In this document: positions 43,546 to 53,758 of the stretch, one piece after another
How the letters are laid out: each line of letters opens with the position of its first letter
Position numbering within the stretch: the first letter of the stretch is position 1
Assembly: GCA_021498125.1 (NCBI GenBank)
Contig: JAIZWL010000005.1
Location: 62,001-126,000 of the forward strand
Source of the DNA: Candidatus Thorarchaeota archaeon
GTDB lineage: Archaea; Asgardarchaeota; Thorarchaeia; Thorarchaeales; Thorarchaeaceae
Direction: 5' to 3'
DNA: 64,000 bases
Position numbers and translations under genes: made by a program
Notes under the pieces: model-generated
Told to the model about the DNA's origin: nothing
The model's database searches: none
Seen by the model: only the letters and a program-made list of their open reading frames with translations

Positions 43546-43693
43546 CGTTAAGAGTGGAATCGATATCCTATAAGACACAGATGTTTTGATATTGATAATG
43601 CGTGTATTTTATCATACACTCATGTATTGGTATAGACGCAGGAAATGATGATAAGTCACGAACCCCAAGTTCACCTGCTGCGGAGGTGTTTCT

Positions 43694-43969
43694 CTGACAA
43701 TAGAACGGTTTGAAGTTGACTCGCATGCAAAACTTGTATCGACCGGAGAAACGATCGATTCCTTAGATACCAGTAAAGTCCTTGTCTTCATTGATCATGA
43801 GAACAAGATCATCTATTTGTGGCGTGGTCAAAAAGCCGATGTTGTGAAAAAACTTGTTGGCACACGAGTTGCTGCAAAACTGAGTCATACTTATCCGGAC
43901 TATCGTATTCGACCAATTGCTGAGGGTACAGAACCTGCCGCATTCAAGGCTTTGTTTGATGCCCCTTAA
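43694..43969 (+). CDS. Gelsolin-like single-domain protein with non-canonical start codon
   Basis: 91 codons, open frame ending TAA 43967-43969. The protein KVLVFIDHENKIIYLWRGQKADVVKKLVGTRVAAKL...YPDYRIRPIAEGTEPAAFKALF follows the gelsolin/villin domain pattern: strand 'vfilD', 'iyvWkGkka', central helix with 'A..A', 'r...v.eG.Ep..F'. Gelsolin domains bind actin and Ca2+ in eukaryotes, and gelsolin-like proteins are known in Asgard archaea. No ATG, GTG or TTG precedes the domain in frame; GGAGGTG (43682-43688) stands 5 nt before CTG 43694, the probable start. A frameshift joining it to the ATG at 43645 is the alternative. Confidence 0.75.
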   Translation: MTIERFEVDSHAKLVSTGETIDSLDTSKVLVFIDHENKIIYLWRGQKADVVKKLVGTRVAAKLSHTYPDYRIRPIAEGTEPAAFKALFDAP

Positions 43970-44142
43970 AGCAGTGCATATTTTCAAATATTAAATCGCG
44001 TGATCGGTTTTGTATTGAGAAATACAGTCTTGTTCAACCATTCAATCATTGATGAGTGAACACAAGATATCCAGCGAACATTAATAGTAGGAAACTACTT
44101 CACATAGATTTAGGAATATGACCCAGTATATCGGTGATATTT

Positions 44143-44871
44143 ATGGTTAATCCGGCGGATACGCCCAACATTTTCATCGACCGAGAACTCCGGAGGATAG
44201 AGCTCACCTTGGAGAGTGGTCGTTATGTCTATCCGCTGAACGTGATTCCCGACGTGGTCTTTCAATCGCATCTTAGAATCCCCGAACTTGTTAAAGACCC
44301 TGAAACTACTCTGTATAAACTGTATCTGACATCAGTCGTTAGCACAATCATCTGTTCATTAAATCCAATTCTCCCGTTTCCGATTAATTGTGCACCCAAG
44401 CTTGTCTTTTTGACCTTAAAAGACGAGATAATCGAAAAGAAAATTGATGACATTGAAGGCAAATTGCTCTCATTTCAGGGTCGCCCTTTTGATGACACCA
44501 TAGTTGAACGTTTTGAATTCTTTCGTGATCTACATCTTGATGAATCTTCAATAGATCGTAATAGACTGGGCGCAATTGAAATCTATGGCGATAAGACCTA
44601 TCTGAACTTGCTCAGAGAACCAAGGGTGTCATTAGTGACCAAGTGGAGTGAGCCTGGGGACTCGCCTCGTTCCCGGCAAGTGAATTGCATCACTGAGATA
44701 GTGCCACGAGGAACCCTGTTCTATAGATATATGTTGGCTATTAGAATACTCTTTTCGAGATGCTATCTTGATCTCCTTGGTCGAAAATATGCATGTGCCT
44801 ACAAATTTTGGATCTGCGAAAGTCTCACTAAAGATCTTACAGACCCTGAAGGTTTTTTTATGCCGCGTTGA
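44143..44871 (+). CDS. Hypothetical protein
   Basis: 242 residues, soluble, no recognised domain. Visible features are an N-terminal RELRRIELTLESGRYVYPLNVIPDVVF strand-rich part, KLYLTSVVSTIICSLNPILPF with some hydrophobic character, and CITEIVPRGTLFYRYMLAIRILFSRCYLDLLGRKYACAYKFWICES near the C-terminus. RBS GGTGAT 5 nt before ATG 44143. Confidence 0.55.
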   Translation: MVNPADTPNIFIDRELRRIELTLESGRYVYPLNVIPDVVFQSHLRIPELVKDPETTLYKLYLTSVVSTIICSLNPILPFPINCAPKLVFLTLKDEIIEKKIDDIEGKLLSFQGRPFDDTIVERFEFFRDLHLDESSIDRNRLGAIEIYGDKTYLNLLREPRVSLVTKWSEPGDSPRSRQVNCITEIVPRGTLFYRYMLAIRILFSRCYLDLLGRKYACAYKFWICESLTKDLTDPEGFFMPR

Positions 44872-52296: not shown

Positions 52297-53724
52297 TTAG
52301 AGGTCCATCTCAACATAGCTGACAGTACCTCTCCCGGACTGATAGATGATCCCTTCTCGTTCGAGATCTGAGAGCGCCTTGTCAAACTCGGCATCGGCGA
52401 TCCCCTCAGCCGCCAGTTCTTTGCGAAGAGCGTCAAGAGGTACATCTTTTCCGATCCCGTCTGAGAGTTTTTTGATCACCTCTACGATCATATCTTGTGT
52501 TGTCTGGTGGGTCTCACTCTTGAGAAATTTTTTGGCAAGGGTGGCTGTTGACTTGTCTTCAGACGCAGCAGCGCGAGCGCCCTTGAGAGCAGCAAGTAGC
52601 GCCGAGGCAGTAGGTGATTGTGGACTGCCTTGTTCTTTATCCGGAGTATCCTCAAAATCCTCAAGGCTCACTCCTTCTAAGCCCTCTTCGGAGACATCTT
52701 CAATATACGGGATCGTCGCATCGGCTTGGATCTCAACACCCAACCATGACGAATCAATGTCCTTATTGAGAGGTGCCGCACGGAGTAATTGTTTGCGGTA
52801 TTTTTTTTGGATTCGTTTTCGTTGGGTTTCAAGATCCGAATCCGCACATAGTTCGACCCCAAGACGAAGGATCAGACGTTCAGCAGCACCCCGAACACGA
52901 GCGTGGGAGTCTGTTGCAACGTAACTGAGTACTTTCATTACCGCCGGGAACTTACTCTCCTTGAGATTAACGCTTTCAAGTAGGGCCTGTTTCACCCGCC
53001 AATCCGTATCTGCAAGAATGTCTAGTACTATCCCTGTACTGGATACGATTCCAAGCTCAGCCATACGGGTGGCCACAAGTACCCGTTCTCTCCAGTTGCC
53101 ATTTTTCAAAAATATTTCCGCGTAACGGATAGTTGCACTGTCAAGAATGTCCAAGATATACGGGATGAGCTCACGCTTACGTTCCAACGACTTTCGTATC
53201 AATATAGGGATCAATCGTTTGCGTGTGGCCTCTGGAAAGAATGTCAGCCGCTGTATCGCACCGTATGACACGGTCTCAATGTGGTTCTTAATCTTATCAG
53301 TCACCCATTTTGTGCCTAATCGCCCCAGATACGCCATGATCCCGAAGACGGTGGATTGATGTTCGCGTCCCAATTTCTCCAGTGCTTCGATCCAGAGCTT
53401 GTGCTGGGTTGTAGATTGGGGGCCGCCCTCGTATCTGAATTTCTCTTCAATGACTTGTAACACCTGTTCTCGCTCAGCAGGGGTGATGTTTACAAACGAT
53501 GAAAACATTAGCGTAATATAATCTCCAAAGACATTTCGAGCAGCAGTCCGAAACATGAGCCTGCGTACAGTCATATCCTCAGCCTCAAAGAGATCTACCG
53601 CCTTTGGTAAGATCCCCTTTCCATTGGGGTATGCCATCATCTTGCCTGCGGCTGAGTACATGACCTTTGCATCAGGAGAGTCAATCGAGGTCCAGATTCC
53701 TCGTAACGCACGGATATGCTTCAT
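52297..53724 (-). CDS. HEAT-like helical protein with C-terminal winged helix
   Basis: 475 residues. Residues 1-290 are repetitive helix pairs (for example RVLVATRMAELGIVSSTGIVLDILADTDWRVKQALLESVNLK) like HEAT/armadillo repeats. An acidic linker follows (VSEEGLEGVSLEDFEDTPDKEQG), and the last ~70 residues are a winged-helix unit (DMIVEVIKKLSDGIGKDVPLDALRKELAAEGIADAEFDKALSDLEREGIIYQ) resembling the C-terminal domain of archaeal MCM or RPA-type proteins. It lies beside a Lys-rich helical protein; together they look like a nucleic-acid-linked pair. Confidence 0.6.
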   Translation of the reverse strand: MKHIRALRGIWTSIDSPDAKVMYSAAGKMMAYPNGKGILPKAVDLFEAEDMTVRRLMFRTAARNVFGDYITLMFSSFVNITPAEREQVLQVIEEKFRYEGGPQSTTQHKLWIEALEKLGREHQSTVFGIMAYLGRLGTKWVTDKIKNHIETVSYGAIQRLTFFPEATRKRLIPILIRKSLERKRELIPYILDILDSATIRYAEIFLKNGNWRERVLVATRMAELGIVSSTGIVLDILADTDWRVKQALLESVNLKESKFPAVMKVLSYVATDSHARVRGAAERLILRLGVELCADSDLETQRKRIQKKYRKQLLRAAPLNKDIDSSWLGVEIQADATIPYIEDVSEEGLEGVSLEDFEDTPDKEQGSPQSPTASALLAALKGARAAASEDKSTATLAKKFLKSETHQTTQDMIVEVIKKLSDGIGKDVPLDALRKELAAEGIADAEFDKALSDLEREGIIYQSGRGTVSYVEMDL

Positions 53725-53758
53725 CTCAAGCTTGTCAATATCAATCTCTTCTGACAGC

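Follow-up and report, generated by a model that had tools for sequence, protein, structure and literature searches.

The analysed window, a 64-kb stretch of Thorarchaeota DNA, carries a frame for a single gelsolin-like domain, and the question raised by this locus is from which codon the frame is translated. The stop-to-stop frame (43655-43969, 104 codons) is closed on its 5' side by the TAA at 43652-43654. No in-frame ATG, GTG or TTG was found 5' of the domain, and the same was observed in the congeneric genome G003. The first canonical start of the frame is the TTG at 43817, which lies within the domain, 41 codons past a CTG at 43694. The initial annotation had described a 91-codon frame with no canonical start before the domain and a GGAGGTG motif 5 nt before this CTG, and it was correct on both counts. 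The window belongs to a genome of 3.1 Mb in 14 contigs (G000); the congeners carrying the gene are G002 and G003, and G038, referred to below, is a member of another Asgard family. The features assigned are as follows.

43694..43969, + strand: ProGel gene (single gelsolin/cofilin-like domain), 91 codons and stop, with putative CTG start
43694..43696, + strand: putative initiation codon CTG, the sole codon of the stretch invariant in G000, G003 and G002
43682..43688, + strand: Shine-Dalgarno sequence GGAGGTG, invariant in the three congeners with the same 5-nt spacing
43648..43655, + strand: conserved upstream element ATGATAAG; the same or a similar element lies 42-62 nt 5' of most orthologs

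The gene is very probably ProGel, translated from CTG 43694 as placed by the Shine-Dalgarno (SD) sequence, and one of the few genes of this lineage with a near-cognate start.

Protein encoded by the frame

The Pfam Gelsolin score of the protein was 20.5 bits, narrowly missing the cut-off of 21. A profile built from the alignment of 31 orthologs matched PDB 7C2F chain B in hmmsearch with an E value of 6.9e-47 over profile positions 1-91. The AlphaFold2 model (pLDDT 87, pTM 0.79) was compared with 7C2F using Foldseek, giving an E value of 3e-13, an rmsd of 1.5, a TM score of 0.87-0.90 and 66% identity, so the fold is of the gelsolin / ADF-H-like type. The profile E value and the 66% identity assign the protein to the ProGel family despite the Pfam score below cut-off. 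The initial annotation had proposed a single gelsolin-like domain and fold prediction as a check; the profile and fold matches bear the proposal out, with Thor ProGel 7C2F as the closest known structure.

The 7C2F entry is a Thorarchaeota ProGel complexed with rabbit actin (Akil et al. 2020, PNAS 10.1073/pnas.2009167117). Passages of a later article (PMC9433394) describe Asgard ProGel as a single-domain, cofilin-like counterpart to the two-domain gelsolins, and the activity of Thor ProGel as demonstrated, citing Akil et al. 2020. The window protein resembles Thor ProGel in having one gelsolin/cofilin-like domain of about 90 residues with a full-length profile match, and by analogy it would be expected to bind actin. 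Unlike the window gene with its CTG, the orthologs outside the genus begin with ATG. Orthologs were detected in most genomes of the family. Those of the other two congeners are 82% and 69% identical to the window's copy, and the core residues are invariant in the congeners and common to other orthologs of the 31-member alignment. G000 further carries a two-domain gelsolin frame and another small gelsolin-like frame. The window protein is an ordinary Thorarchaeota ProGel ortholog, and its domain is not new, given its identity to the crystallised protein; the novelty resides in the start codon and not in the protein.

Putative initiation codon and Shine-Dalgarno sequence

The window has a single GGAGGTG-N5-CTG motif where chance predicts 0.16, so by itself it is no more than mildly unlikely. 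It is invariant in G000, G003 and G002, the three species of the genus that yielded the gene, while the adjacent codons vary, and its retention in three species makes it more than a chance occurrence. This comparison covered parts of the genomes, the named relatives being metagenome assemblies. In about 25 orthologs outside the genus an ATG stands one codon 3' of the CTG column (two codons in the ortholog L019), mostly behind an SD weaker than the GGAGGTG of the congeners; the entries L035 and L036 duplicate L006 and L007 and so carry no extra weight. In the congeners this former ATG column reads ACA (G000), ACG (G003) and AAC (G002). From the CTG onward, identity at codon positions 1/2/3 was 86/94/40% between G000 and G003 and 80/84/29% between G000 and G002, indicating constraint at the protein level from this codon on. 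The SD duplex energy was -13.4 kcal/mol, whereas the ATG genes of the genus have a median of -6.6; the 16S tail used for these energies was a typical archaeal one, not read from G000, but in this genome AGGTGA and GGAGG are over-represented ahead of genes with an ATG start. G002 alone has an in-frame ATG 16 codons 5' of the CTG, inside the ATGATAAG element, and could in principle initiate there.

In the proposed mechanism, the near-perfect SD duplex (GGAGGTG, 5-nt spacing) would offset the mismatched first base of CTG, and the ordinary initiator tRNA with anticodon CAU would insert methionine at 43694. The ancestor of the genus would have lost the ATG, with a strong SD and a CTG one codon 5' becoming fixed. 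The predicted N-terminal peptide is TIERFEVDSHAK, with the methionine kept or removed. The weak ProGel start may also carry a regulatory meaning.

Alternative explanations

The initial annotation had offered two options, a CTG start or a frameshift joining the domain to the ATG at 43645. The conservation of SD and CTG in the three congeners argues for the former, and a programmed frameshift or recoding event, with initiation at ATG 43645 or at GTG 43686 within the SD, is very unlikely. An ATG is indeed present upstream, and each of the three congeners has a GTG-N6-TGA whose TGA shares bases with the CTG in a CTGA. However, the ATG abuts the 5' edge of ATGATAAG, and its direct position before this recurring element undercuts the idea. 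Across orthologs the position of the ATGATAAG-type element is independent of the reading frame, and its ATAAG core shows an enrichment of about threefold in the -70..-25 region of verified starts; the element may form part of a promoter, with a promoter-like function. The frame of ATG 43645 stops after 22 codons, and the upstream ATG frame ends at differing sites among the congeners. In the three species ATGATAAG and the SD are separated by 34, 34 and 33 nt, so the upstream frame is not kept, and the spacer diverges like non-coding DNA. No slippery sequence is common to the congeners, and a GTG inside the SD cannot initiate using that same SD.

A start at another near-cognate codon behind the same SD, either ACA/ACG at 43697 or ATA/ATT at 43700, is unlikely, though less so than the frameshift. 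G003 has ACG and ATT at these positions, both near-cognates; ACG is the likely aIF6 start in the lineage; and the ATG of the relatives occupies the ACA/ACG column, that of L019 the ATA column. Against this, neither codon is conserved (G002 reads AAC and GTA, G000 ACA at the first), and the second, ATA in G000 and ATT in G003, lies 11 nt from the SD. The CTG alone is both invariant and ideally spaced. The least probable explanation is that the gene is a pseudogene in decay, or that its start codon was lost through faulty assembly. This would fit a gene in which the start codon is the sole missing part, and metagenome assemblies do contain errors, but an identical CTG and SD stand in three separate species genomes. 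Third positions are only 29-40% identical against 84-94% for second positions, and the core residues shared with other orthologs are invariant. Initiation at CTG 43694 is thus the reading preferred here. Of the initial interpretation, the gelsolin gene and the CTG with its SD stood and the frameshift option did not; it had overlooked the ProGel orthology and the other near-cognate starts.

Probable near-cognate starts in other genes

Samples of G000 and G002 were compared through 303 usable non-overlapping ortholog pairs, with antisense shadows filtered out. In about 8 of the 303 pairs a near-cognate start was aligned with a canonical one or was conserved. The set of eight, completed by hand, is as follows.

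ProGel: CTG in G000, CTG in G002
SNAP-like TPR protein: CTG against TTG in the G000/G002 pair
A gene of G002: CTG, where G000 has TTG
Phosphopantothenate synthetase: ATT, where G002 has GTG
HEAT-repeat-like protein, 52297..53757, - strand: second CTG-start candidate in the window, AAAAGGAGGCGTCCTGAG-CTG, with the CTG at 53755-53757
MTHFR: CTG in G002
aIF6: ACG, with the SD inside the upstream gene
One further candidate gene: ACG

These counts suggest near-cognate starts in about 2-3% of the sampled genes, roughly a per-cent frequency in the lineage. Of 22 family genomes, 20 have ATG, GTG or TTG in the start column of the SNAP-like TPR gene; the remaining two, G000 and G003, have CTG. For MTHFR the start is CTG in 13 of 23 family genomes, spread over 6 genera, and 9 of these have no in-frame canonical codon upstream. 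For aIF6, five genomes from three genera have ACG in the start column, and G009 and G014 have ATG. The CTG of the HEAT-like gene, whose HEAT_2 match is weak, stands in the column where the G002 ortholog has ATG, and an alternative in-frame ATG lies 11 codons downstream. Two other candidates were dropped: 773345, whose start codon is TTG, and 360208, a wrong-frame shadow.

The MTHFR gene of G000 itself (L140, G000:C1:486043-486966) has a TAA exactly at the position of the CTG of G003 and reads TAA-ACA-CTC; its remaining start candidates, ACA, CTC and ACT, are all odd.

A screen for coding signal 5' of the first canonical start gave 0/189 genes for E. coli K-12, 11/1024 for G000, 2/361 for G002 and 21/727 for G038. 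Some of these hits are false positives, and at least one of them, SelD, is probably a selenocysteine gene. Taken alone, the higher rate in G000 than in E. coli is not significant. In the phosphoesterase of G038 and G047, two genomes of another Asgard family, AGGAGGTG is followed by AAG at a column with ATG or TTG in other Asgards, and no canonical codon was found upstream of the AAG in either genome.

In many genes of the G038 stretch C1:1-800000 (L253-L292) an SD precedes ATT, ATA, ATC or AAG, and the sequence 5' of the coding signal lacks a canonical start. Such genes are commoner there than in G000, and by eye include RadA-, MoaD-, CinA-, ALDH- and HIT-like genes.

Shine-Dalgarno strength and initiation factors

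The motif GGAGG was present at -20 to -3 in 7 of the 8 near-cognate starts, compared with 53 of 412 canonical starts (13%; Fisher p 6e-6). When aIF6 and the other ACG gene, which had been picked with some freedom, were left out, it was present in 5 of 6 (p 2e-4). The duplex energies of the near-cognate starts ranged from -7.4 to -13.4 against the ATG median of -6.6, and the canonical starts followed the same gradient (ATG -6.6, GTG -7.4, TTG -8.2). The gradient and the GGAGG excess fit a model in which strong SDs make up for weak codons. A tendency of stronger SDs to accompany weaker starts has been reported for GUG and UUG in prokaryotes (Belinky et al. 2017, PMC5622118).

An additional initiator tRNA carrying a different anticodon was considered and rejected on a search that was not exhaustive: a pattern for the initiator-type anticodon stem, tolerating one mismatch, matched only once, with anticodon CAU, and ARAGORN covered part of the tRNAs. 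The loss of aIF1, which in Sulfolobus discriminates against non-canonical starts (PMC6237735), was ruled out as a cause by the presence of the factor (SUI1) in 38 of 39 genomes. With CAU as the only initiator hit and aIF1 present, neither a special tRNA nor an absent factor is needed. The best reading is that the ordinary initiator tRNA would initiate at near-cognate codons in this lineage, driven by the SD.

Neighbouring genes and other frames

The downstream neighbour of ProGel (44134-44871, + strand) codes for 245 aa without a Pfam match. In almost every orthologous locus searched, ProGel is flanked by a relative of this protein, which lies downstream on the same strand in G000 and G003 and is divergent in several relatives, e.g. 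L037. From gene order, the two form a conserved pair that is rearranged in the genus.

The genome's only actin-family match (G000:C3:105694-106827, E 2e-126) has one in-frame TAA inside the matched stretch, which may reflect an error, a misplaced start or recoding. The two-domain gelsolin frame (C3:109418-109939) lies about 2.6 kb from it.

The selenophosphate synthetase frame at about 442070 (L068, G000:C1:440001-460000) and its ortholog on G002:C21 contain an in-frame TGA. In both genomes it stands at the catalytic position, His-Gly-TGA-Ser-Cys-Lys, and the enzyme is probably a selenocysteine-containing SelD.

Comparison with known systems

Both the protein and the biochemical possibility of such a start are known; it is the frequency and the conservation that are unusual. 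Bacterial infC uses an AUU start, and near-cognate starts of bacteria resemble the present case in that the codon is mismatched to the initiator anticodon. Among 61,358 ancestral AUG starts in prokaryotes, 2 had switched to CUG (Belinky et al. 2017, PMC5622118), whereas some 300 gene pairs yielded several aligned cases here; the former count derives from annotations favouring canonical codons. No report of CTG starts or of a near-cognate survey in Asgard archaea was found in the mostly non-subscription literature searched.

A plausible, still tentative generalisation is that start choice is relaxed in Asgards as a whole, with 1-3% of genes, information-processing and cytoskeletal ones included, having near-cognate starts. 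The codon would follow base composition (CTG and ACG in Thorarchaeota; ATT, ATA, ATC and AAG in the AT-richer G038 lineage), strong SDs would enable its use, and annotations would lose or truncate such genes. The eukaryotic-signature proteins of Asgards have been catalogued from gene calls restricted to ATG, GTG and TTG, and standard gene finders overlook or truncate genes with near-cognate starts; the expectation of the initial annotation that such finders would miss the present gene is supported. If near-cognate starts reach per-cent frequency, gene calling would miss small proteins, ProGel among them, and truncate others. In this lineage, the nearest to eukaryotes, the system offers a testable case of archaeal initiation trading codon matching for SD strength.

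Claims of presence or absence and expressed constructs would also be distorted, and a correction to ATT has already been needed for the tubulin AtubA of Kariarchaeaceae, where an ATT start was inferred and the annotated protein was too short (Sci Adv 2026, PMC13394414). As with ProGel, an Asgard cytoskeletal gene has a rare near-cognate codon behind a ribosome-binding site as its likely start. AtubA differs in lineage and codon and concerns one gene without a survey, whereas here the start columns of several genes were compared over many genomes.
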